Shown here: piece after piece, positions 42,730 through 54,499 of the stretch
How the letters are laid out: each line of letters starts with the position of its first letter
Position numbering within the stretch: position 1 is the first letter of the stretch
Origin: Candidatus Bathyarchaeota archaeon
GTDB lineage: Archaea > Thermoproteota > Bathyarchaeia > Bathyarchaeales > Bathycorpusculaceae
Direction: 5' to 3'
NCBI GenBank assembly: GCA_026014735.1
Contig: JAOZHT010000002.1
Location: 558,001 to 622,000, forward strand
Length of the DNA stretch: 64,000 bases
Translations under genes and position numbers: made by a program
Notes under the pieces: generated by a model
Told to the model about the DNA's origin: nothing
The model's input: only the letters and a program-made list of their open reading frames with translations
The model's database searches: none

Positions 42730-45700
42730 CTAACCAAAATCGAAAAGCTTGGCTTGCTTGGGTTTTTTGTTATCAAACATCAAGACAAGCTCCTCTTTAA
42801 TGAGGTCCATGCGCTGCGTGTAATAATTCGGCAAGCCATACTTGTCGACCAATTGCTGCGCCGCATCCAGGTACTTCTCGATTCCGCCGCGGTAAACGGT
42901 GAGAGTTAGTTGGCCGCCGCAATTAGGAGTTGGGCATTTACCTGATAAGGGGAGTCTGCGGAATTTCCTGTTACATGATCTGCATCTGAATCCTTGCGTG
43001 GAAAAAGCGCGGAGGTTGCCTGCGATGTCACGCATGAAGTGGGTGTTGAGGACTTTTAGCGCCACGCTCTTAGCGCTTACGGCATCGATTTTTTCTCCCA
43101 GCTCAAGCTGCATGTTGAGTTTATCTATCATGGATTTGAATTCTTTGTAGCTGCTGTTAGCGTTGCCCAAGTTGATGTTGGTGCAGGGCGTGGTAAACTG
43201 GAACCCCTCAAACTGCGCTTCAGTGTCCAAGCGGTGGCTAATGGTATCCATGAAGGCGCTGACGGTTCGGGATTCGCCTTTTTCCCAGGATTTACGGTAA
43301 AACTCCAGCGGATAAGATGCGCTGACATCGAAGTCGTGGGCTTGCCGCTGCACCTCCTTGGTGTTGCAAACTGGAATCAGTAGAATCGGAGCATCCATGA
43401 TGCCGCCGATTTGGGCAGGCAGAAAAATCCTTGAGAAATTCAGCAGGGTATCTAAGCCCAGCATGATGGCGTCTTCGTCGCCGTCGCAGTCACGGCGCTT
43501 AGCTGAGTGCCAGACGGGATGGGCATAGATGACGTTGCGGTCGGTGTAGCCGACGATTCTGCCCAGAATGCAGGCGCAGGTATGAGGAGCTAACCCGAAG
43601 ATGAGGTGCCCCACAAGGTCCTGGGCTTTCTTAACGTTATAGTATGGTGGCAGCTTGTAGACGCGCACCAGCAAATCATCGATGAAGGCAGCGATTTTTA
43701 GAAAGTACTCTCCGGCCGACCAGGGAACAACGACATCTTGGAGTTTAAGTTCACAGACCTGATTGGGGTCAGTGAGGGGTAAGCCGTGGGTGTCGGCATG
43801 GTAGCCCATCTGATGCATCTTCTCGATTGAAACGCCGATTTCCGCGGGGGTAATATGGGTAAGCGGCGCGTTGGTGGCGTCGAAGCGTATGGTGCCGTCC
43901 TTGTAGACGGATAAGTCGTATTTGGCGCGCAGGATACCCTTCTCAAGCATCTCAGGGGTCTTGTCAAGGTTCGTTAAGCCCTTCACGCCCCGCAGCATCT
44001 TAGGAGCCTGATAGCCAAGGGTGACGCTGGCGGATTCCACTACCTCTTTGAAATTCACTGGTTGACGCTGATAGAGGATGGCTTCGGCTTTGCAGCTGCC
44101 GCAGTAGCTGTCCTTGAGGGGTCTGCCGCATCGGGGGCAAACCTTCTCGGGGAAGGTGGGTCCGCCGCAGGTGGCGCATTGGATTTTACGGGTGTAGGTT
44201 TTGCATTCGGGGCATTTGCGTTTAACCATCTCAACAAAAACGGGGCCTTTTTTGCCTGCCTCCATCAAGTCCCGGTGGCTGCCCCCTGCTAAACCGACGG
44301 GGAAAAGCACGTGTACGTTGGGTTTCATTTCGCGGTGCTTGGCTTTTTCGGGTCTGCCCATGCGTCCCCCCACGTAGGTAGGTGCCTTATCCTTAACCGT
44401 CACGCCGCAGAGCGCCGCCAGCAGCTCCAGCACAGATGAAGCCTGCATGTCCTCAGTGAAGCGTGGGGTGCCATAGCCCAACGTGAAGGCTAAGGAAGCC
44501 GCGTCATTGCCAATGATCACTGCTTTGCCATCGATTATTCGGTAGGGAGCAAAAATCTTACGCAGCACCTTTAAGGCCTCGCTGTCCGGCTCACCTGTGA
44601 TTTTGCAGGCAAACCCATCCTGCAGCGCCACCTCACAGCTGCCCAGCCACCTGCGGAGGCACAAAACATCCTCCACCGTGGGTGTTCCAGTCCAATAGAA
44701 GATGCAGTTTGGCGCCAGCGGCACACCTAAAACTTGGCTTATGGCTGCGGCTTCCTTGGCGGTGGGCTTGTTCTTAAAGGGATCATAGATGAAGTTCTCC
44801 AGTTTGTCGGAGGGGAGCTTGCAGGCTTCTGAGGCTTTGCAGGCGTCGCCGCCATATTTGGCTAAAATGGCGTTCTGCAGGTCTTTGCTCCACCATTCCT
44901 CCACGTACCCTGAGGGCGGAAGCGTCTTGTTGCTGTAGAGGAAATCTCCAAAGTCAATAAGCATGTCGCCTAAAAACAGGATTTTCTGGACCCTGCCCTT
45001 CACATCAACAAAGTTCTCCAGCGAAACCCGAACAACCGAGCCGTCTTTAAGCAGCACCACGGGTTTCTCGATGCTGTCCACAGGCATGGTGACGCCGCCT
45101 TTGCCAGGCAGCTCCAGGCGCATCTGGGTGCCTGCGGCTAGAAAGCTCTCGACGACCAGCATGGTGGCGGGGTGGATTCCTACGGCGGAGAGGCCTGTGT
45201 TACGTGAGCGGCCATATCGGAGGCGGAAGCCGCCGCGGGTTGAGGGAAATGCAAAGATGGGTCGCCCAGCAATCACGTCGTCCATGAAGCCGCCAGATTT
45301 CTTCTCGGATTTCTTCTTGAAGCTCTTAAGCCAATCCCACTCATGAAAGCCGAACTTGTCAACAACCACATACACCTTTTGTGCACGCCCGACGATGCCG
45401 TCGTTGATGACGCGTAGGGCGCCGCCGCGGACGCGGTTGGTTTCAACCCGCTCCAGGTTGCGGTAGGAGGAGACCTCGACGGGGTCTGATTCGGTGCCTG
45501 TGCATTCGACGGGGACAAGGTTTAGGGCTTTGCGGAGCTCCGCGTCGGGGATGTGATATTGGAAGCGGCCTACGGCGCGTTCGTAAAGCCGCAGTTCCTC
45601 TACGAAGCGGGAGATTTCCTCTTCAGTGGGTTTGTACACGTCTAAGTTGAGGGCAAGCCGCACGTAGTCCCCCACCACCAACGTTAAAGCCTGGTCGGTG

Positions 45701-46158
45701 CCGCCTGCCGAGCGGATGGGACCGGCGAAGTATATGCCGAGATAACGGGTTTGATCAGCGTTCTTCTTGACCTTAACCTGAGCGATACCCTGGATGGGCG
45801 CAGCGGTTAAGCCCTCAGTGAAAATGGCAAGCGCCGTACGAATAGCCTGCTCAGCTAGCTTCTCCTCGGTTTTCTCCTCGTCGGTTTGGGCGAATTTGCC
45901 CTGGGCGATTTCCTTGGCGACTACGAAGGCGATTTCTTCTCGGGGCTTGGTTTTGCTGAGTTCACGGATGCTGACTGCGACGCCTTTGGGTCCCACCAGA
46001 CCCTCGACGAGGTCAGCGATGTCTTGGGCGATGATGCATTCGGTTTTAAGCGCGGGGTCTAAGCCTTTGGATCGGGCGCTGTCGCTGATTTGGTAGATGT
46101 GCATTAACTCCTTGTTTAGGGCGTCAAGGTAGTTTTGGTAGCCTTTACTGATGTTCAA
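42730..46158 (-). CDS. polC: DNA polymerase D large subunit DP2
   Basis: 1142 residues, the catalytic subunit of the archaeal replicative polymerase PolD. The catalytic centre is recognised in HSAKRRDCDGDEDAIML (about 920-936). Two zinc-binding regions are visible: CPECKTYTRKIQCATCGG with CPRCGRPLKDSYCGSC, and near the end CRSCNRKFRR...CPTPNCGG. The C-terminus QAKLFDF matches a PCNA-interacting peptide. The length is normal and the motifs are continuous, so no intein is present. DP1 lies 8.3 kb away rather than adjacent. Confidence 0.97.
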   Translation of the reverse strand: MNISKGYQNYLDALNKELMHIYQISDSARSKGLDPALKTECIIAQDIADLVEGLVGPKGVAVSIRELSKTKPREEIAFVVAKEIAQGKFAQTDEEKTEEKLAEQAIRTALAIFTEGLTAAPIQGIAQVKVKKNADQTRYLGIYFAGPIRSAGGTDQALTLVVGDYVRLALNLDVYKPTEEEISRFVEELRLYERAVGRFQYHIPDAELRKALNLVPVECTGTESDPVEVSSYRNLERVETNRVRGGALRVINDGIVGRAQKVYVVVDKFGFHEWDWLKSFKKKSEKKSGGFMDDVIAGRPIFAFPSTRGGFRLRYGRSRNTGLSAVGIHPATMLVVESFLAAGTQMRLELPGKGGVTMPVDSIEKPVVLLKDGSVVRVSLENFVDVKGRVQKILFLGDMLIDFGDFLYSNKTLPPSGYVEEWWSKDLQNAILAKYGGDACKASEACKLPSDKLENFIYDPFKNKPTAKEAAAISQVLGVPLAPNCIFYWTGTPTVEDVLCLRRWLGSCEVALQDGFACKITGEPDSEALKVLRKIFAPYRIIDGKAVIIGNDAASLAFTLGYGTPRFTEDMQASSVLELLAALCGVTVKDKAPTYVGGRMGRPEKAKHREMKPNVHVLFPVGLAGGSHRDLMEAGKKGPVFVEMVKRKCPECKTYTRKIQCATCGGPTFPEKVCPRCGRPLKDSYCGSCKAEAILYQRQPVNFKEVVESASVTLGYQAPKMLRGVKGLTNLDKTPEMLEKGILRAKYDLSVYKDGTIRFDATNAPLTHITPAEIGVSIEKMHQMGYHADTHGLPLTDPNQVCELKLQDVVVPWSAGEYFLKIAAFIDDLLVRVYKLPPYYNVKKAQDLVGHLIFGLAPHTCACILGRIVGYTDRNVIYAHPVWHSAKRRDCDGDEDAIMLGLDTLLNFSRIFLPAQIGGIMDAPILLIPVCNTKEVQRQAHDFDVSASYPLEFYRKSWEKGESRTVSAFMDTISHRLDTEAQFEGFQFTTPCTNINLGNANSSYKEFKSMIDKLNMQLELGEKIDAVSAKSVALKVLNTHFMRDIAGNLRAFSTQGFRCRSCNRKFRRLPLSGKCPTPNCGGQLTLTVYRGGIEKYLDAAQQLVDKYGLPNYYTQRMDLIKEELVLMFDNKKPKQAKLFDFG

Positions 46159-46278
46159 AGCGACAGCTCACAGGCAAGATATGATAGGGAGCCTTATTTT
46201 GGCTTTCCTAAAGCCAAGTGAGAAAAAGTCAAGAAACAACAAGGCGGAAAATGTACATGCTAGAAAGGGCGTCCAGAG

Positions 46279-46542
46279 CTACTGGGGTTTTGCTGCTGGC
46301 GTTCTTTTCTGGTTGCCGTAAACGCGGTCGGTTAGCATGCAGTAAACGTCCACTTCACCCTGCGCGGGGCGAACCGTGAATTCCTCCTTAAGCCCGCAGC
46401 TGCTGCATTGGGCAATGGAGCGTCCGCCTTCTTCACGGAAGATCTCCACCAACACGGTTTCTTTTCCGCATCTTGGGCAAGAGAAGAATTTCGGTAGCTT
46501 TTTCTTTGGAATATGTACAACTTTTTTCCTTCTTCGCCCCAT
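46279..46542 (-). CDS. elf1: Elf1-like transcription elongation factor
   Basis: 87 residues: MGRRRKKVVHIPKKKLPKFF then a four-cysteine zinc ribbon (FSCPRCGKETV ... IAQCSSCGLKEEF). The basic N-terminal tail plus ribbon is the Elf1 signature of archaea and eukaryotes. The frame runs upstream to 46947, but the extra part lacks any family features and lies antisense to nadE, so the start is placed at the ATG of MGRRRKK. Confidence 0.9.
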   Translation of the reverse strand: MGRRRKKVVHIPKKKLPKFFSCPRCGKETVLVEIFREEGGRSIAQCSSCGLKEEFTVRPAQGEVDVYCMLTDRVYGNQKRTPAAKPQ

Positions 46543-46666
46543 ACAAGTAACCTTCGATTTTTGGTAGTGTTGATTAATATTTGTGCTTGTCCTTAAATAC
46601 TTGCCTACTATCGTTGACTGTAAGAGGCTGCGTAGTACCTTGAAGTTGACGCCTGCTGTGTTAGAC

Positions 46667-47482
46667 ATGGATTTTTCTAAGGTGGAAAACCGAATCCGCC
46701 GATTCATCAAAGAATGCGTAGAGAACGCATGTGCCGAAGGCATCGTACTGGGGCTCAGCGGCGGAGTGGACAGCGCAACCATAGCGGCTCTTTCAAGCAG
46801 AGCCATAGGAGGCAACAGGGTTTTGGCGCTTATGCTTCCCGAAGCGGAAACCCGAAGCCAACAAGACCTCGACGCCGCCAAAACCGTCGCTGACCTCTTT
46901 GGGCTCCGATCCCAAATCTGCGACATGACCCCCGCAGTGGAAGGCACCTACAAGAGCATCCCAATCTTCGATTCCACCGATCGACTGTGCAAGGGAAACA
47001 TCAAAGCCCGAACCCGAATGGTTTTCCTCTACTACTACGCCAACAAGCAAAACCGAATCGTCTGCGGCAGCTCAGATAAATCCGAGACTATGATGGGCTA
47101 CTTTACCAAGTGGGGCGACGCCGCAGCCGATATAGCACCCATCATTGATCTCTACAAGAGCCAGGTGCGCATGCTAGCCGTGCATCTGGGCATCCCCAAG
47201 GAACTGGCCTACAAGCCCTCGACGCCTGCGCTCTGGCCTAATCAAAAAGCCGAGGAGGAGCTGGAAATCAAATTCGAGACCTTAGACCTCATCCTCTATG
47301 GCCTGGAACGCTTCATGTCGCCGATGGAAATCGCTGAGCAACTCAGCCTCGACAGAGCAGTCGTGGACCAAGTTAAATGCCGCTGGCTAGCCAACGAGCA
47401 TAAGCGTTGTTTGCCAATGGCACCTAAGCTGGGGTATCGAACGGTCACAAACGATTTTAGGCTCCCAAGACACACCTACTGA
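46667..47482 (+). CDS. nadE: NAD synthetase
   Basis: 271 residues. Amidates deamido-NAD to NAD. The PP-loop is IVLGLSGGVDSATIAAL (about 24-40), and later motifs are CGSSDKSETMMGYFTKWGDAAADIAPI and YKPSTPALWPNQ. It is the short form, without a built-in glutaminase domain, so by itself it should use ammonia. The next gene, one base away, is a nitrilase-fold hydrolase like the glutaminase domain of long NAD synthetases. A TATA-like CCTTAAATAC lies near 46592. Confidence 0.95.
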   Translation: MDFSKVENRIRRFIKECVENACAEGIVLGLSGGVDSATIAALSSRAIGGNRVLALMLPEAETRSQQDLDAAKTVADLFGLRSQICDMTPAVEGTYKSIPIFDSTDRLCKGNIKARTRMVFLYYYANKQNRIVCGSSDKSETMMGYFTKWGDAAADIAPIIDLYKSQVRMLAVHLGIPKELAYKPSTPALWPNQKAEEELEIKFETLDLILYGLERFMSPMEIAEQLSLDRAVVDQVKCRWLANEHKRCLPMAPKLGYRTVTNDFRLPRHTY

Positions 47483-47483
47483 A

Positions 47484-48326
47484 GTGGACGCGATGAAGGA
47501 AAAAATCAAGCTTGCCCTCTGCCAAATAAGCTGTAGAAGAGAAAACAAAGAAGCCAACCTCAGCAAAATCGAGGAATTAACAAGACGCGCCAAACAGGAG
47601 GGGGCTGAACTCGCCATTTTCCCAGAGATGTCGCTGACTGGCTATGTGCTCCATGACCTTCTCTTCGAGGTAGCTGAACCCATCCCCGGGCCCTCGGTAA
47701 AGCGGATAGAGGCGTTGGCGAAGGAAACGCAGATGCATATCATCTTTGGCATGGCTGAACGCTCGGAGAAGGCGCAGGCAACCATCTATAACACCGCTGT
47801 CCTTGTGGGTCCAGAGGGGCTGCTTGGCAAGTACCGCAAGATGTATCTGCCTACCCACAGCGTCTTTGAAGAGAAACGTTATTTTCGCCCAGGCTACCAG
47901 CCCGCCGCCATAAAAACCAAGCTAGGCACCGTGGGCTTAACGATATGCTATGACGTGTTCTTCCCCGAAGTGTTTAGGCTGCCTCGACTGATGGGCGCGC
48001 AGCTTCTTGTCTGCATCTCTGCTTCGCCAGCGGTGCGTCGAAGCTACTTTGAAATCCTCACGGCTGCTAGGGCGCTGGAGAATACGGCGTATCTTGCCTA
48101 CGTTAACCTCGCCGGATTGGAGGATGGCATGCAGTTCTGGGGTGGAAGCCGACTTGTCAGCCCAACAGGGGACGTCTTAGCTAGGGCAAAGTATGATGAG
48201 GAGGACTTTGTGGTTTGCGAGGCGGATTTTGTGGACCTGCGTGCGGCTGAATCCTTTATTCCGACGCTGAGGGATCTGCGGCCTGAGCTTTACCGTAAGC
48301 TTGGGGAGCTTTCGGAGCAGTTTTAG
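47484..48326 (+). CDS. Nitrilase-superfamily carbon-nitrogen hydrolase
   Basis: 280 residues (GTG 47484, or ATG at 47493). The catalytic Glu-Lys-Cys set is visible in FPEMSLTGY, KYRKMYLP and LTICYDVFFPE. The fold hydrolyses amide or nitrile bonds. The tight coupling to nadE suggests it could supply ammonia from glutamine to NAD synthetase as a detached subunit; a generic omega-amidase or beta-alanine-type role remains possible. Confidence 0.9.
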   Translation: MDAMKEKIKLALCQISCRRENKEANLSKIEELTRRAKQEGAELAIFPEMSLTGYVLHDLLFEVAEPIPGPSVKRIEALAKETQMHIIFGMAERSEKAQATIYNTAVLVGPEGLLGKYRKMYLPTHSVFEEKRYFRPGYQPAAIKTKLGTVGLTICYDVFFPEVFRLPRLMGAQLLVCISASPAVRRSYFEILTAARALENTAYLAYVNLAGLEDGMQFWGGSRLVSPTGDVLARAKYDEEDFVVCEADFVDLRAAESFIPTLRDLRPELYRKLGELSEQF

Positions 48327-48815
48327 GCAGGTCACATATAAGCTCACTTGTTGTTTTTCGGTATCACAGCTGCATCACAGGGCTGTGATATCAAGTGATT
48401 TATGGGGAAATCACCGTGATTTGGCTGTGAGGGGTGACGTCACGACGGTTTTTTGGGGTATCACAGGGGCTTTTTTGGGGGTTTAGCGGTGTTTTGATGT
48501 TGGTTTGGGGATGAAAAACTGTGTTTTATTTTGCTGAATATGTCAAAAATGCACGGTTGCTTTTTTGGGGGCTTTGCAAAAGTGCATTTTTTGTGTAAAG
48601 TTAAGGGGTTATTGACCGTCCAAATACCGTGGAATTTAGCGCTATTTGTGTTAACTGTGTAAATTCTTGCGTCTTTAAGTGAAACAAGCAAAATATCGGT
48701 CGATTTAGGCGTTTAAAGGCTGTTTAAAGGCGTTAATCTTCCTATGTGTCGGCTAATGAGCCCTTGCAAAGGTTAAAAAGTAGGGTAGGTATACAAAACT
48801 GTATCCATTTGGCAT
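48327..48815. other. Intergenic region with TGTGA/TCACA repeats
   Basis: About 490 nt. Between 48340 and 48475 there are at least nine occurrences of TGTGA or TCACA-type words, several paired as inverted repeats (ATCACAGGGCTGTGAT at 48374-48389), and the perfect palindrome GTGACGTCAC at 48434-48443. The rest is T/G-rich with runs such as TTTTTTGGGG that recur three times. A TATA-like GGTTAAAAAG is at 48771. Confidence 0.6.
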
Positions 48816-49313
48816 ATGGAGGAAAGCGCTAATTTGAAGCTAAAAGACGGCGTAACTGCATGGTTAAATGGGGCATTAAATGACCCCATTGTAAAGATAC
48901 TGGCAAAAAACAGCCAATTAACTAAAACCCAGCTTGAAACGTTGCTCATTGACGTTTTAGCCGAAAATATATCAGGCAAACAGCTAAAGTACGACGATAA
49001 AGCCGCCTTACGCCTAACGAAGGCAAAAATAAGCCGCGGATCGTTTAATAGGACTTTAAAACAGTCCCGTGAAAACGTGATTAAATCCATCTACACAGTG
49101 CTACTTCTAGGATATTTGGGGGTTTTTGAGACCACAACTCTTGACCCGTACCTCGAAATAGCAAATAAACTGCACGAATATGTGGAGGCCCACCAGGACA
49201 TGCCTAACAAGGAAGAGGAACTAAAAGACCATCTAAAAGTCATAGAAATCATCCGAACGGAGCTTGAAACGAGCCTAAAACGGCTTTCTAGCCCATCAGA
49301 AGAGCTCTTGTGA
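48816..49313 (+). CDS. Origin-proximal hypothetical protein, 165 residues
   Basis: 165 residues, mainly helical and charged, with no membrane helix. The middle segment AKISRGSFNRTLKQSRENVIKS looks like a helix-turn-helix, followed by hydrophobic IYTVLLLGYLGVFETTTLDPY. I do not recognise a named family. Its stop codon lies inside a perfect 14-nt palindrome, TTGTGACGTCACAA (49308-49321), and a related GTGACGTCAC lies 370 nt upstream of its start. This invites autoregulation. It is about 1.7 kb from the proposed origin. Confidence 0.65.
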   Translation: MEESANLKLKDGVTAWLNGALNDPIVKILAKNSQLTKTQLETLLIDVLAENISGKQLKYDDKAALRLTKAKISRGSFNRTLKQSRENVIKSIYTVLLLGYLGVFETTTLDPYLEIANKLHEYVEAHQDMPNKEEELKDHLKVIEIIRTELETSLKRLSSPSEELL

Positions 49314-49638
49314 CGTCACAAATCACACTTTTTCCCATCTTTTGTAGCCATTTTTTGAAGTATTAATTACCTTCAATAATTCGACTGAATATAAGGTAAA
49401 TCAGCAAAATAAGCCCAAATCTGCCTTCCTTTATGGCATGAACGCAACCGTTGAAGAGGCTTTCTGCAAGGCTGTGATGTGTGATGTCATAGTTTGATGT
49501 GATTTTGATACCGCAAACCTTAAAAATCCATGGGAAATACTGTGATGTGTGATGCAACCGCTAAAATCACGGTTAAGTCACGGCTGAATCACAGGTGATG
49601 ACATCACGGCTGACCTCACATGGGTAATCTTAGGCGTT
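49314..49638. other. Intergenic region with TGTGATG direct repeats
   Basis: About 320 nt. A 15-nt direct repeat, CTGTGATGTGTGATG, occurs at 49472-49486 and 49540-49554. From 49560 to 49620 a chain of TCAC words (ATCACGG, GTCACGG, ATCACAGG, ATCACGG, CTCACAT) runs at about 10-12 nt spacing. These are separated irregularly overall, so this is not a CRISPR array. Confidence 0.65.
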
Positions 49639-50388
49639 TTGGTGGCTGTAACAGCGGTAGCTGCCTATGAATACTACCGACAAATCCGCATGGCCCACAA
49701 AGAATACGTCAAAGCCCGTGATTTCATCCAAGATATCGTGCTAAGTTTCGATCGGCAACTTAAACGTGAATCAAACCGCTTCGAATCCATGGTGGCAAAA
49801 GTAGATGGAACCAACGTTTCCGCTGAATCAAGCTACAGAAAAGCCGAAAACCTCGAGAGAAAATTGCAGCCGCTACAGGAGCAACTTAGCACTCTTAGCC
49901 AATCATATCAGGCGATGTCACAGAGCATCACAGAAAACCTCACTGAATCCAGCCAAGCCAGCACCACTATCCTCTCGGGACTTGAGGGCCTTGAATCGAA
50001 ACTAAAAGACATAGAAGCCACCCAGGAAACGCTGCGAAACAAAATCAGCGGGTTCGAGGAGCAAATCCAAAAACTCTCCATCGCTCGGCCCCTCCAGCCC
50101 CAAGTTGAGGTTGCGCTGCCGCCGATACCGATTAAACGCGATAAAGCCCTATCCGCCTTGACAGAAACAGAGATCACTGTTCTGGAGATGCTTTCCAAAG
50201 AGGGCCCCAAAACTGCGCCTGAAATAAAGGAGCATGTAAAGCTCAGCCGGGAACATACAGCTCGGCTTATGAAGAAGCTCTACGAGGAGGGTTACTTGGA
50301 GAGGGAGGCAGGCAAGATTCCGTTCCGTTACAGCATCAAAAAAGAGATGGAGCCGCTGCTGGCAAGGGCAGAGAACCCAGCGGTATAA
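49639..50388 (+). CDS. Membrane-anchored coiled-coil protein with C-terminal winged helix
   Basis: 249 residues from TTG. The N-terminal VAVTAVAAYEYYRQ is the tail of a hydrophobic helix that continues upstream in the open frame (WVILGVLVAV), although no ATG or GTG is available there. A long coiled coil (about 25-145) follows, and the last 80 residues form a MarR/TrmB-like winged helix: LTETEITVLEMLSKEGPKTAPE, then REHTARLMKKLYEEGYLERE. It could tie DNA to the membrane near the origin. The start codon is unresolved. Confidence 0.65.
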   Translation: MVAVTAVAAYEYYRQIRMAHKEYVKARDFIQDIVLSFDRQLKRESNRFESMVAKVDGTNVSAESSYRKAENLERKLQPLQEQLSTLSQSYQAMSQSITENLTESSQASTTILSGLEGLESKLKDIEATQETLRNKISGFEEQIQKLSIARPLQPQVEVALPPIPIKRDKALSALTETEITVLEMLSKEGPKTAPEIKEHVKLSREHTARLMKKLYEEGYLEREAGKIPFRYSIKKEMEPLLARAENPAV

Positions 50389-50431
50389 ACTAGTAGAGAG
50401 TAATTACATTTTGTGAAGTGTTGTGAAGACC

Positions 50432-50863
50432 CTATTTTATGTGTGGTTTGATGGTTGCCGCTGGAATGTTTGGCGCTGTCTTATACTTGAGGCTGTTTGA
50501 GCCGCCGGTGCGCATAAGCATACCCTTAGCGGCCATCCGCGATAGGTAAGTAGAAATTGTGCTTAGACTGACGGGTTCTTTGAGTTCCTGCTCGTAAACA
50601 GACTGGATATCTTTGGATGAGAACCATATCAGGGGGAAGTTTTTCTGGATAACAAGCTGCACCTTCTCGAAGCGGGAGAGGTTGCGGTTAGGCATCGCTG
50701 AACCGGTATTTGCAGCTGGGTTTTCGCCTGGTGCGCCGCCTAGCAATTCGACGAGATCCAGTAGGCGCAGAGCTTTATCGCGGGTCACTTGACCCTCAAA
50801 GGCAATGGTGTATCGATTACCATCGCTATCGAAGAGCTCAACGCGCATTTTGCGAGCCGGCAT
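50432..50863 (-). CDS. Origin-adjacent helix-turn-helix protein
   Basis: 143 residues starting MPARKMRVELFDSDGNRYTI. The N-terminal 45 residues form a strand-rich sensor-like part (ELFDSDGNRYTIAFEGQVTR). The C-terminal half is a helix-turn-helix domain (KEPVSLSTISTYLSRMAAKG with LIWFSSKDIQSVYEQEL). Family not recognised. It is transcribed away from the proposed origin, with its promoter facing the first ORB. A longer frame to 50902 is possible. Confidence 0.68.
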   Translation of the reverse strand: MPARKMRVELFDSDGNRYTIAFEGQVTRDKALRLLDLVELLGGAPGENPAANTGSAMPNRNLSRFEKVQLVIQKNFPLIWFSSKDIQSVYEQELKEPVSLSTISTYLSRMAAKGMLMRTGGSNSLKYKTAPNIPAATIKPHIK

Positions 50864-51056
50864 ATGGTTGACACCTAGGTGTTCACAATCTTTGTTATTC
50901 ACTGCTTATAACTGTGATGGTGAATTAAGGGAAATTAAAAAACTCATTTTAGGCTCGGAATCGGTAAATATGCTGTTTTTGGATTGATTATGCAATTACC
51001 AGCTTCACATGTGAATGGAAAGGGAAAAAAATTTTAGTTAAGGCTTAGTTCCCATT

Positions 51057-51079
51057 CTCCAGTAGAAACGAAGGGGTGG
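51057..51079 (+). repeat. Origin recognition box ORB1
   Basis: CCAGTAGAAACGAAGGGGT, preceded by CT. It differs from the common archaeal ORB core at one position (A for G in GTAG). Confidence 0.85.
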
Positions 51080-51313
51080 CTACTTCACTGTAAAAGGACA
51101 TAATTAGGGTAAATCAGGCGGAAAGAACCTTGATAAACCAGCAGTTTTATTGATATTTCACATGTATTCACAGATTTGTGAAGGAAAAAAAGCAGGGATC
51201 TCGGCAGAAAAAATTCTTGTCAAGATAGGAACCTGTCACGTTTCAGTTCTAAGGTAGTTGGCGTTAAAAAAGGATGTTTTAGCGGTTTTTTCATGGATTT
51301 TCCCATTGAAGGG

Positions 51314-51337
51314 ACACCCCTATGTTTCCTCTCGAAG
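51314..51337 (-). repeat. Origin recognition box ORB2 (inverted)
   Basis: On the minus strand it reads CGAGAGGAAACATAGGGGTG. It is opposite in orientation to ORB1 and ORB3, the arrangement normally seen around an origin's AT-rich centre. Confidence 0.75.
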
Positions 51338-51500
51338 TTTTAGCGGTAAAAAAGAAGTTTAGAGAGCCTGAAAAAATATTCACAGCGAATCTGTTTAGGA
51401 TTTTAGACAGGTATCATTAATATATAAAACTGCTATTTACCACTCAGAGTATAGTTATATATATTATAATAATAAGGAAAATTAATTTTAGTAAGATTTT

Positions 51501-51524
51501 TTCCAGTAGAAACGTTGGGGTGTG
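51501..51524 (+). repeat. Origin recognition box ORB3
   Basis: CCAGTAGAAACGTTGGGGTG, preceded by TT. It abuts the end of the AT-rich unwinding-type stretch. Confidence 0.85.
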
Positions 51525-51661
51525 TGTTTTCCCTGTTTACTTGCTTGTTATCGCCTGTTTTCATCCTCTTTTAGGAATGTTGCTGTTCTAAACCAGTTTT
51601 TTGTACTGCATGCTTTATCTGTTCCACTCGAAATAACGGTTCATCCTCTGAAACAGGGAGA

Positions 51662-52903
51662 GTGGGCAGAACGGGCAACACAAACGTACTCGACGATGTA
51701 TTCGAAAGTTTCGTTAACGCGCCGAAACTATTCAGGGACCGCGAAGTTCTAAGACACGACTACTTACCAGACAGACTTCCACATCGAGAAGACCAAATCC
51801 GCCTCTTAGGCTCAACCGTTGCTCCAGTGCTTAAATCCGCAAGATGTTCCAACATATTCATCTACGGCAAAACCGGCACCGGAAAAACTGCGGTCGCAAA
51901 ATATGTCCTAAGCCACCTTGAATCCAAAGCCAAAGAATACGGTGCACAAGTCAAATTCTGCTACATCAACTGCCGCATGACCGGCTCAGAGTACCGTGTG
52001 TTTGCCAGCCTCAGTCAAAGCGTTGGTTTATCCATACCCTTTACTGGGCTTTCTGTAGGTGAAGTTTTCGATAGGTTCCGAATGGGCCTTGACCAATCCA
52101 GAATAATCTTCATTATAGTCCTTGATGAAGTCGACGCTCTAATCAAGGATCGAGGAGACGCTTTCATGTATGAGCTTACCCGCATAAATGAGACCCTCAG
52201 CAAAAGCAAAGTCTCCATCATCGGCATATCCAACGATCTGCGACTAAAAGAATTTCTTGACCCACGCGTCTTCAGTTCCCTAAGCGAAGAAGAACTAGTT
52301 TTCAGACCCTACGACGCAGCGGAACTCCGAAACATTTTGATGGAGCGGTCAAAACTTGCTTTTCAGGATGGCGTGTTATCTGAATCCGCCTTAAGCATCT
52401 CCTCTGCGCTTGCTGCGGCTGAGCATGGGGATGCGAGACGTGCACTGGATTTGCTGCGGGTGGCAGGCGAGGTTGCGGAGCGTCAAAGTGCAAAATCCAT
52501 AACGGAGGAGCATGTGCGCCAAGCAGAAAAGCACATAGAGCATAACCGCGTCGTGGAGGCCCTCAAAAACTTGACGTTGCATTCTAAACTCGTGCTGCTC
52601 AGCGTATATCACCTCAACAAGCCCAGTGCCACCACAGGAGAAATCTATGACATCTACAATGAACTCTGCGGCGAGATGGGTGCGGGGCTGCTGACTCAGC
52701 GGCGTTTAGGTACCTTGGTTAATGAACTTGATTCGATGGGTTTAGTTAACGCTAAAGTAGTTAGCATGGGCAGATATGGCAGAACCAAAAAGATTCGCCT
52801 CGAGATTTCCCGGGGCTTAATCCGAGATGTCTTCACCGAGGATGCCCGCTTCAGCCAACTGCTAGGGTACTCCCCTAAAAGCAACCATAAACCCTCAGAC
52901 TGA
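51662..52903 (+). CDS. cdc6: Orc1/Cdc6 replication initiator
   Basis: 413 residues, GTG start with GGGAG just ahead. AAA+ motifs in order: Walker A YGKTGTGKTAVAK (about 67-79), Walker B IVLDEVDALIKD, sensor 1 GISNDLRL. The initiator-specific region follows, and a C-terminal winged helix (PSATTGEIYDIYNELCGEMG, then RRLGTLVNELDSMGLV) binds ORBs. Length and motifs are typical. It converges with DP1, overlapping it by nine bases. It lies immediately beside the proposed origin, whose boxes it should recognise. Confidence 0.97.
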   Translation: MGRTGNTNVLDDVFESFVNAPKLFRDREVLRHDYLPDRLPHREDQIRLLGSTVAPVLKSARCSNIFIYGKTGTGKTAVAKYVLSHLESKAKEYGAQVKFCYINCRMTGSEYRVFASLSQSVGLSIPFTGLSVGEVFDRFRMGLDQSRIIFIIVLDEVDALIKDRGDAFMYELTRINETLSKSKVSIIGISNDLRLKEFLDPRVFSSLSEEELVFRPYDAAELRNILMERSKLAFQDGVLSESALSISSALAAAEHGDARRALDLLRVAGEVAERQSAKSITEEHVRQAEKHIEHNRVVEALKNLTLHSKLVLLSVYHLNKPSATTGEIYDIYNELCGEMGAGLLTQRRLGTLVNELDSMGLVNAKVVSMGRYGRTKKIRLEISRGLIRDVFTEDARFSQLLGYSPKSNHKPSD

Positions 52904-54499
52904 CGGCTTAGTGAAATCAAGCTCTATCGTTTCTAGAGTTTGCAAGTTCACCACCGGCACTTTGCCTGGCGTAGGGGTCAAACCAAGCTTTTCCATGTAG
53001 TCGGTTTGTTCCTGCCAGCCACCCGAATTAACCACCAGCACCCCACGGTAGTTAAAGTAGCCTATAACGTGGATGTGGCCTGCATGGAAAATATCTGGGA
53101 CTTTATCAATTACCATGTAGTCACGGTTCTCTGGGGAAAGCATCGTTTTTCCACCGTAGACGGGTGCAAGGTGACGGCTCTGCATCATCAGCCTCATGGA
53201 GTTCTGGGGGTGATCATTATCCATGCCTGGCACAACCCCGATTATATCGTTGAGGCTTACACCATGGTACATCAACACCTCGACGCCATGCAGACTCAAA
53301 AAGCATGGGCTGCCCACCGAGTGAATGTTTGCTTTGCCCTCAATCGCGGTGAGGTAACCGGGGGGAATGGCGGGCTGAGGCTGAGATTTACGTGCCGCGT
53401 CATGGTTGCCGGGCGCTATCACGATTTCGATGTAATTAGGGACCTTCTCAAGATATTTTACCGCGAAATTGTATTGCTTGTGGACATCGCGGATGGTAAG
53501 TTCTTTCTGCTGATCAGGATAGATTCCTACGCCGTCCACGATGTCGCCTGCAATCAGGAGATACTTGACTCTGCCGGCGATTTCCCGCATCTCAGCTGTA
53601 CCATATTTGCCGCGGAGCCACTGGATAAAATTCTTAAACGCTGCCTTGTTGAATTTGGTGCTGCCCACATGTATGTCAGAGGTTAACACAGCGTAGACTG
53701 GTTCCTGCGCGCGCTGCGGTGGTTTTCTGCCTACCTCAGGAAGGATAATGTCCTCTGCCATAAGCAGGTTAGTTCGGGTTTTAATTACGGCGGCGCAGAA
53801 CACAGTGTCAGGCAAAAGCATAAGCGCCCTTTTTTTAACGTCCTCAGGCGCCTTCTGGGGAATCAGGATGGTTGCGCTTCCCTGCAGGTCCTCCACTGAG
53901 AGAATCATGTGGTTTTTGGAGTCCCGCTTCTCGGTGAGCATGCAGATGATTTTAAGCTTGGTTTTCGGCTGAGACTTTAGGGCTTCAACGATGGGCGTGG
54001 CGGCTCGTACATCCATTCTTTGGCGAAGTAGCTTTTCGATGCGTCTGAAGCGATCCTGAAAGAGCCCTACGTACTCGCCGAGGGTGCCGTTGGAGGTCAA
54101 CTTGCCCGTGGGGTCCTCGAGGATTTGGAGCTCGGAGGGTATGTACTTGGCTTCTGGATAGAAATAGTCGGCGGCATCAACCTCAGGGGTAGCAGCGGGG
54201 GCCGATACCTCTGGGTAGCTGGGTGACGCTGTGGGCTCCTGGTAGATTGCCTTTGGCGGCTCGATTATGGGTTCGGGGGGCGCCATGGCCTGCTGCATTA
54301 CGTCTTCTAAAAAGCTGCGTTCGATAAAGATGGGCTTATCCTGCAGCGCCTCCATCCTCTGCAGAGCAAGGTTCATCAGGGAAAGGGGATCGCTGGTCTG
54401 GGCGTTTTGGGTGAGGAACTCGAAGGCTTCGCAGTTCAGCTGGTAGCCTGCCGCGATTGTTGCCTCGATTGCTTTTTGAAGTTTTTCCTCCGCACTCAT
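52895..54499 (-). CDS. polB: DNA polymerase D small subunit DP1
   Basis: 534 residues. The proofreading 3'-5' exonuclease subunit of PolD. An N-terminal helical domain and proline-rich linker lead to an OB fold (about 180-260), then a calcineurin-like phosphoesterase domain with all metal motifs: LTSDIHVGS, IAGDIVDGVG, APGNHDAARK, MYHGVS and HAGHIHVIG. The exonuclease site is therefore intact, unlike eukaryotic homologues. Confidence 0.96.
   Translation of the reverse strand: MSAEEKLQKAIEATIAAGYQLNCEAFEFLTQNAQTSDPLSLMNLALQRMEALQDKPIFIERSFLEDVMQQAMAPPEPIIEPPKAIYQEPTASPSYPEVSAPAATPEVDAADYFYPEAKYIPSELQILEDPTGKLTSNGTLGEYVGLFQDRFRRIEKLLRQRMDVRAATPIVEALKSQPKTKLKIICMLTEKRDSKNHMILSVEDLQGSATILIPQKAPEDVKKRALMLLPDTVFCAAVIKTRTNLLMAEDIILPEVGRKPPQRAQEPVYAVLTSDIHVGSTKFNKAAFKNFIQWLRGKYGTAEMREIAGRVKYLLIAGDIVDGVGIYPDQQKELTIRDVHKQYNFAVKYLEKVPNYIEIVIAPGNHDAARKSQPQPAIPPGYLTAIEGKANIHSVGSPCFLSLHGVEVLMYHGVSLNDIIGVVPGMDNDHPQNSMRLMMQSRHLAPVYGGKTMLSPENRDYMVIDKVPDIFHAGHIHVIGYFNYRGVLVVNSGGWQEQTDYMEKLGLTPTPGKVPVVNLQTLETIELDFTKPSV

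Follow-up and report, generated by a model that had tools for sequence, protein, structure and literature searches.

The window analyzed here is a stretch of 64,000 nucleotides (nt), positions 558001–622000 of its contig, from the ~2.9 Mb genome of a Candidatus Bathyarchaeota archaeon. Within it, three small genes that we refer to as P1 (48816–49313, + strand), P2 (~49603–50388, +) and P3 (50432–50863, -) lie beside a probable replication origin in the order DP2 (-), nadE and nitrilase (+), P1 (+), P2 (+), P3 (-), origin DNA, the initiator gene orc1 (+), DP1 (-) and a PhoU/AbrB-like gene (+). All three are real genes and are nearly always present in a single copy. Their open reading frames (ORFs) were as the original prediction had described them, except that the third is better started at ATG 50863 (‘MPARKMRVELFD’) rather than at 50902, as its homologs align from the former position and not from the latter. 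The order of these genes and the DNA sites in the gaps around them are conserved, and particular sites co-occur with particular proteins of the set.

Each of P1, P2 and P3 was present in 42 of 45 good relatives. We assembled an order-level set of 81 loci, made up of the window and 80 named Bathyarchaeota loci, and in all 66 of the loci that hold the four genes the arrangement P1+ P2+ P3- orc1+ was kept. Beyond the order, the class provided 64 good genomes, of which 61 had P1, 51 had P2 and 50 had P3. The nadE and nitrilase genes were absent from the interval in several families, indicating that P1-P2-P3 is the fixed core. The block with DP2 and DP1 also occurred in other Bathyarchaeota families, and genomes of ammonia oxidizers, which bear archaeal amoA, mostly had DP2-P1-P2-P3-orc1-DP1 as in the window; in one closed genome of 1,645,259 bases the block spans the record start. 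The homologs are therefore not scattered, and the linkage to orc1 that had been proposed for the window holds among its relatives.

The gaps between these genes had been described as rich in TGTGA words, and comparison with a background of 20 sampled stretches of the same genome (390 kb), together with whole-genome pattern searches, bore this out. The background contained 405 TGTGA/TCACA words, or 1.04 per kb (0.99 per kb in intergenic DNA), while the density was 12.3 per kb in the nitrilase-P1 gap, 27.7 in P1-P2, 46.5 in P2-P3 and 10.0 in P3-orc1, i.e., 10–46 times the background. The densest 325-nt background window had four such words and the P1-P2 gap had 9–10. Across 76 loci the P1-P2 gap contained 5–13 sites (median 9, 26.6 per kb) at fixed positions: on the stop codon of P1, within the gap at ~160 and ~230 nt, and ahead of P2. 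The P3-orc1 gap contained 2–11 sites (8.6 per kb, 65 loci), which were also fixed, at 20–45, 140, 220 and 290–310 nt from P3. The 15-nt direct repeat CTGTGATGTGTGATG (49472 and 49540) and the two TGACGTCA palindromes (48436 and 49311) were likewise found as predicted. No copy of GTGACGTCAC occurred in the 390 kb background, and all three copies of the 14-mer tandem TGTGANNTGTGAYG in the 2.9 Mb genome are inside the P1-P2 gap.

The sites had been taken as one set, a view that did not survive comparison across relatives. The base after TGTGA was T in 78% of the P1-P2 sites and A in 88% of the P3-orc1 sites, which rules out a single family and indicates two: TGTGAT/C (TGTGAY), found around P1-P2, and TGTGAA, found near the origin, each following a different protein.

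The TGTGAY sites are arranged around P2 in a manner suggestive of an operator. Site A (TGTGACGTCACAAATCACA, 49309–49327) overlaps the P1 stop codon and is conserved there within the order. Site B (TGTGATGTGTGATGTCA, followed by a TGTGAT at 49498; 49473–49502), whose 14-mer is unique in the genome to this gap, lies upstream of a putative P2 TATA box (TTAAAAAT, 49520–49527, +), for which the promoter role is deduced from the sequence. Site C (TGTGATGTGTGATG, 49541–49554) is at the transcription start expected from the distance to the TATA box, and site D (TCACAGGTGATGACATCACGGCTGACCTCACA, 49589–49620) covers the ribosome-binding site of P2 and its probable start codon, as judged from the sequence and from aligned relatives. 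Aligned relatives likewise have an A/T box in the interval from site B to site C. Lying on either side of the putative TATA box, sites B and C appear operator-like; both TGTGACGTCACA and the tandem TGTGATG surround the putative promoter and co-occur with P2. Upstream of P1, a further six TGTGA sites and one GTGACGTCAC palindrome (48327–48470) are found mainly in the window’s own genus and in a few other lineages.

The earlier inventory of sites was correct for the TGTGA words, the repeat and the palindromes, and missed an element of P1’s own. This candidate P1 operator is the inverted repeat GTATACAAAACTGTATCC (ATACA-N4-TGTAT, 48789–48806), which has one exact copy in the genome. Its arms are conserved and its spacer is variable, and it precedes P1 almost throughout the P1 loci of several classes, the ammonia oxidizers among them. 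The best 14-mer matched 9–10 of the 10 arm bases in 81 of 81 order-level loci and in most other classes, compared with mostly 7 in shuffled sequences.

To pair sites with proteins we used natural gene losses across the loci. Within 450 nt after the P1 stop codon, the mean number of TGTGAY sites was 5.5 in 34 class-level loci with P2 versus 0.7 in 14 without P2, with a background of ~0.5 (Mann-Whitney p 2.5e-7, a statistic that ignores relatedness). The sites persisted in genomes of families f62, f14 and f64 that have no P3, and TGTGA (mostly TGTGAT) was enriched around the P1-P2 junction of the amoA-bearing genomes (2–9 observed versus ~0.4 expected). P1, the 165-residue protein that had been suggested to bind TGTGA, was rejected as the binder since the sites nearly vanish in genomes that have kept P1 and are missing P2. 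In the 450 nt upstream of P3, 27 of 28 class-level loci had 3–9 TGTGAA/TGTTAA words versus 0.2–1.6 expected, regardless of whether P2 was present, and seven of nine amoA-bearing genomes counted had 5–13 TGTTAA alone. Counts were taken upstream of P3 since TTGTKAA within 800 nt ahead of orc1, an earlier measure, performed poorly where orc1 had moved. Origin recognition boxes (ORBs) stay beside P3 where orc1 is ~3 kb or more away, in family f66 and in family f13 (L159, L310, L313, L314 and L315, in which the origin is split from the initiator gene). Based on this, an initial formulation that P3 follows orc1 was refined to P3 following the ORBs. No ORB-like sequence was present in 16 scanned loci lacking both P3 and orc1. 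The ATACA-N4-TGTAT element upstream of P1 was retained in genomes without P2 or P3. Together, the pattern of losses indicated that P3 goes with the origin, P2 with TGTGAY and P1 with its own palindrome, and we infer that each protein binds the sites with which it is paired.

At least two of the three proteins had been expected to contain winged-helix or helix-turn-helix parts, and our analyses point to such parts in all three. P1 (48816–49313, +) is a helical protein with homologs in 55 of 61 relatives, 103 of 121 class genomes and 127 of 300 phylum genomes. Its AlphaFold2 model was all helical with a predicted local distance difference test (pLDDT) of 86.6. By profile alignment with hhalign, the most diverse P1 profile (A7) matched HTH_10 with a probability of 77 over 51 columns, the whole domain, compared with 5.4 and 0.7 for controls and 2–9 for narrower profiles. 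Four of 23 distant members also matched HTH_10, below the Pfam cut-off (best E 0.025). No Pfam or NCBIfam family was above its curated cut-off, a sequence comparison with the PDB gave nothing significant, and Foldseek found no PDB fold match (best E 1.0). From the profile alignment, P1 looks like a protein with a helix-turn-helix of the HTH_10/sigma-region-4 type.

P2 (49603–50388, +) has, as judged from Pfam, hydropathy and homologs, a MarR/TrmB-type winged helix together with a coiled coil and a predicted membrane helix at its N-terminus; a coiled coil and a likely membrane segment joined to a DNA-binding domain had been read from the sequence alone. Residues 174–233 matched Pfam MarR with 33.1 bits (cut-off 24.6) and TrmB with 31.2 bits (cut-off 25.6), and the recognition helix is strongly conserved (REHT-RLMK-LY). 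The N-terminus had transmembrane-type hydropathy in 141 of 147 homologs, 113 of which also had the charge pattern of a cytoplasmic C-terminus. The predicted P2 is therefore a membrane-anchored protein with a MarR/TrmB-type domain, and in this it is unlike typical soluble members of those families, for which solubility is typical and not strictly defining. The coiled coil gave matches to SMC, EzrA and similar proteins that we rejected as unspecific; the family assignment comes through the winged helix alone (Pfam, NCBIfam and PHROGs).

The first canonical codon of P2 is a TTG at 49639, and the reading frame probably starts upstream of it, at an ATC at 49603. About a dozen close relatives have no ATG, GTG or TTG ahead of the membrane helix (in the window, 49603–49605; also L189, L190, L192, L194, L196, L201, L203 and L211), and in several close relatives a good ribosome-binding site is followed by a conserved ATC (or ATT) at this position. 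Together these observations suggest that the P2 start codon is non-canonical.

P3 (50432–50863, -) is a 143-residue protein with a beta-beta-alpha domain and a single winged helix, based on homologs aligned from M1, AlphaFold2 and Foldseek. The model had an overall pLDDT of 69.9, with ~80–87 in the winged helix and low confidence in the beta-beta-alpha domain. Foldseek indicated similarity to Fur, RosR and MecI (probability 1.0), and a sequence search of the PDB gave 2k4b, a bacterial transcriptional regulator, as a weak match (E 0.01). The score against Penicillinase_R (MecI-BlaI) was 18.0 bits, below the Pfam cut-off of 22.6; as the likeness is one of fold, we did not place P3 in the MecI/BlaI family. 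No Pfam or NCBIfam family was above its curated cut-off and no PHROG was found.

The TGTGAA-type sites extend from P3 into the part of the origin on its side (50883–51384), with words at 50883, 51005–51014 (TTCACATGTGAA), 51158, 51168, 51177 and 51380, and a TGTGAT at 50913. Two further TGTGAA words (50412–50426) are in the gap between the convergent P2 and P3. A scan for ORBs in the ~800 nt of A/T-rich DNA between P3 and orc1 gave three matches versus 0.13 expected: TCCAGTAGAAACGAAGGGGTG (51058–51078, +), an inverted box with two mismatches (51315–51335, -) and TCCAGTAGAAACGTTGGGGTG (51502–51522, +). Between the boxes is an A/T-rich stretch (51418–51475) that is a probable unwinding element. 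Based on the three ORBs, it is reasonable to regard this region as a replication origin; GC skew within the window was uninformative on this point. The adjoining orc1/cdc6 gene (51662–52903, +) was identified by Cdc6_lid, Cdc6_C and PRK00411 (E 3.5e-149). Among the ammonia oxidizers, Nitrosopumilus maritimus is listed in a review with a single replication origin (PMC5333045).

The conserved outer neighbors, with homologs in the same place in other loci, are DP2 (42730–46158, -) and DP1 (52895–54499, -), which from their sequence, rather than from a family search, we take to be the large and small subunits of DNA polymerase D. In 22 of the 66 complete loci (e.g., L046, L055 and L064) P2 and P3 are separated by an insert of two genes, one for a HerA-type helicase (Pfam DUF87) and a partner that is NurA-like by eye with no Pfam match; the insert is absent from the window. 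Loci L290–L307 and L309 (families f62, f14 and f64) have neither P3 nor an orc1 found in the locus, and P1-P2 adjoin DP1. In L183, L322, L323 and L324 (f66), loss of the P2 membrane helix coincides with orc1 being on the other side of P1. Six loci from other Thermoproteota families (L153–L155, L164, L167 and L175), which have neither DP2 nor an adjacent orc1, encode a short P2-like protein (~150 residues, a hydrophobic helix and a winged helix) directly after P1. An Rfam scan over 46000–53000 gave no match and Tandem Repeats Finder detected no long array.

From these data we lean toward the view that P1, P2 and P3 together form a conserved control module beside the origin, in which each of the three DNA-binding proteins has an operator of its own close to its gene. 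The conservation and co-occurrence of the sites make autoregulation of all three proteins likely. P1 would repress itself via ATACA-N4-TGTAT. P2 would bind the TGTGAY palindromes and tandems around its own promoter, ~1.5–2 kb from the origin, and in so doing repress itself. P3 would bind the TGTGAA/TGTTAA repeats in its promoter and in the adjoining part of the origin, limiting its own expression and probably modulating origin firing or the access of orc1. As the P3 sites run from promoter into origin, P3 would be expected either to compete with Orc1 in that region or to cooperate with it, although we see a direct action of P3 at the origin as evenly balanced between yes and no. A second job for P2, holding the origin region at the membrane, is suggested by its predicted membrane location and its many sites beside the origin; if the helix is used as predicted, P2 would bring the neighborhood of its sites to the membrane. 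We regard such tethering as speculative and rather doubtful. Of the system linking origin, membrane and regulation that the original prediction put forward, the origin linkage and the regulation are thus well supported by gene order and site conservation, and the membrane part corresponds to the predicted P2 helix.

Several observations weigh against the proposed module. Three TGTGAY sites occur in locus L329, which has no detected P2; L185 has P3 and only two TGTTAA; other-class P3 genes away from orc1 (L163, L166, L173 and L174) and two amoA-bearing genomes (L151 and L169) have almost no TGTKAA. The pairing of sites and proteins is a co-occurrence in related lineages, and the P1 helix-turn-helix is assigned from a single profile comparison, with no fold match from Foldseek. 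P2 has no membrane helix in lineages f66, f20 and f21, which counts against tethering, and P1-P2 are nowhere near orc1 in genomes of f62 and f14, which argues against an obligatory origin tether.

The separation from orc1 in f62 and f14, where P1 and P2 nevertheless remain paired, would fit a different explanation, in which these are three ordinary autoregulated transcription factors that lie by chance in an ancient replication gene cluster, their sites serve nothing beyond the promoters of the three genes, and there is no origin control and no tether. The position of the operators at the genes’ own promoters, and the restriction of the tandem operator to the locus, also fit such an explanation. 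However, 5–13 sites (median nine) in ~300 bp exceed the needs of simple repression, TGTGAA sites reach ~300 nt from P3 into the origin, and P3 goes with the ORBs rather than with orc1. It would also have to be explained why a repressor of purely local action carries a membrane helix, and we consider chance placement of ordinary regulators unlikely.

In a second alternative, the main role of P2 would be to anchor the origin at the membrane or to act in partition, with the TGTGAY cluster as a centromere-like element near the origin and self-repression a by-product. Its predicted topology with a cytoplasmic C-terminus, coiled coil and conserved recognition helix would suit this role, as would a dense site cluster 1.5–2 kb from the ORBs with a tandem form found there alone. 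The loss of the helix in three lineages and the location of the cluster away from orc1 in f62 and f14 would not, and the sites straddle the putative P2 promoter just as operators do; an anchor or partition protein is possible, if rather improbable. The single N-terminal helix and cytoplasmic winged helix of P2 also resemble a ToxR-like design, in which a membrane-bound one-component sensor would relay an envelope signal to the origin region via its sites. We think this very unlikely, as P2 has almost no residues outside the membrane with which to sense and its tandem site has no further copy in the genome. The control module with autoregulated proteins is therefore the reading we retain.

The orc1-DP1-DP2 neighborhood is itself already known from archaeal replication islands, including cdc6-DP1-DP2 clusters in Thermococcales and others, in which orc1/cdc6 is likewise found by an ORB origin with PolD genes alongside (PMC2643942). 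The neighbors reported in the examined parts of that survey are PolD, RFC, MCM and GINS, and do not include P1-P2-P3 (PMC2643942), which here form a fixed core with conserved operators of their own. The SegAB system of Sulfolobales offers another parallel, as SegB is a DNA-binding protein, membrane-near and origin-enriched, that has clusters of sites around its own genes and around oriC1 and whose placement toward the cell periphery was seen by the authors as a hint of membrane tethers (PMC12284271). SegAB differs in that its sites are chromosome-wide and SegB partners with SegA, whereas P2 has its own predicted membrane helix together with a winged helix, and a tandem site at this locus alone. 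No ParA-type gene was present among the ORFs from nadE to DP1 (nitrilase, P1, P2, P3 and orc1), and the module has the same genes elsewhere. Similarly, bacterial ParB-parS with polar or membrane anchors has an origin-near site cluster that, as here, could be held at the cell surface, but P2 would unite site recognition and anchoring in one protein, in a module without a ParA partner.

P2 and P3 also share domain types with the MarR/TrmB repressors and, in the Fur/RosR/MecI fold, the MecI/BlaI-type repressors, as well as palindromic sites over their own putative promoters. Compared with these, P2 adds the membrane helix and coiled coil, and P3 adds the beta-beta-alpha domain and sites that extend into the origin. 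Winged helices also occur in WhiP of Sulfolobus. Like P3, WhiP is encoded beside an archaeal origin, oriC3, but it replaces Orc1/Cdc6 as the initiator (PMC5333045), whereas P3 accompanies orc1. The literature searched, which leaves out most subscription journals, contained no account that we could find of the three proteins, the operators or the linkage, so that this absence is no proof of novelty.

Little is known of how archaea with one PolD-linked origin position it and regulate its firing. The gene set described here is small and deeply conserved, and in both Bathyarchaeota and cultivable ammonia oxidizers it lies directly at the origin and comes with three predicted protein-DNA pairs. On a modest reading, the set provides three widespread regulators with likely operators, in groups for which few regulators have assigned sites. 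It is conceivable, though we would not expect it, that Bathyarchaeota and ammonia oxidizers hold the origin at the membrane through P2 alone, its membrane helix and coiled coil being joined to a winged helix for a TGTGAY cluster exclusive to the origin side, while P3 coats part of the origin to time initiation. Such an anchoring system would predate the divergence of the lineages concerned. If P2 truly is a membrane-anchored, origin-side DNA binder, it would be an archaeal one-protein counterpart of the bacterial origin-anchoring systems, and such a membrane tether would, as far as we know, be new for archaea.

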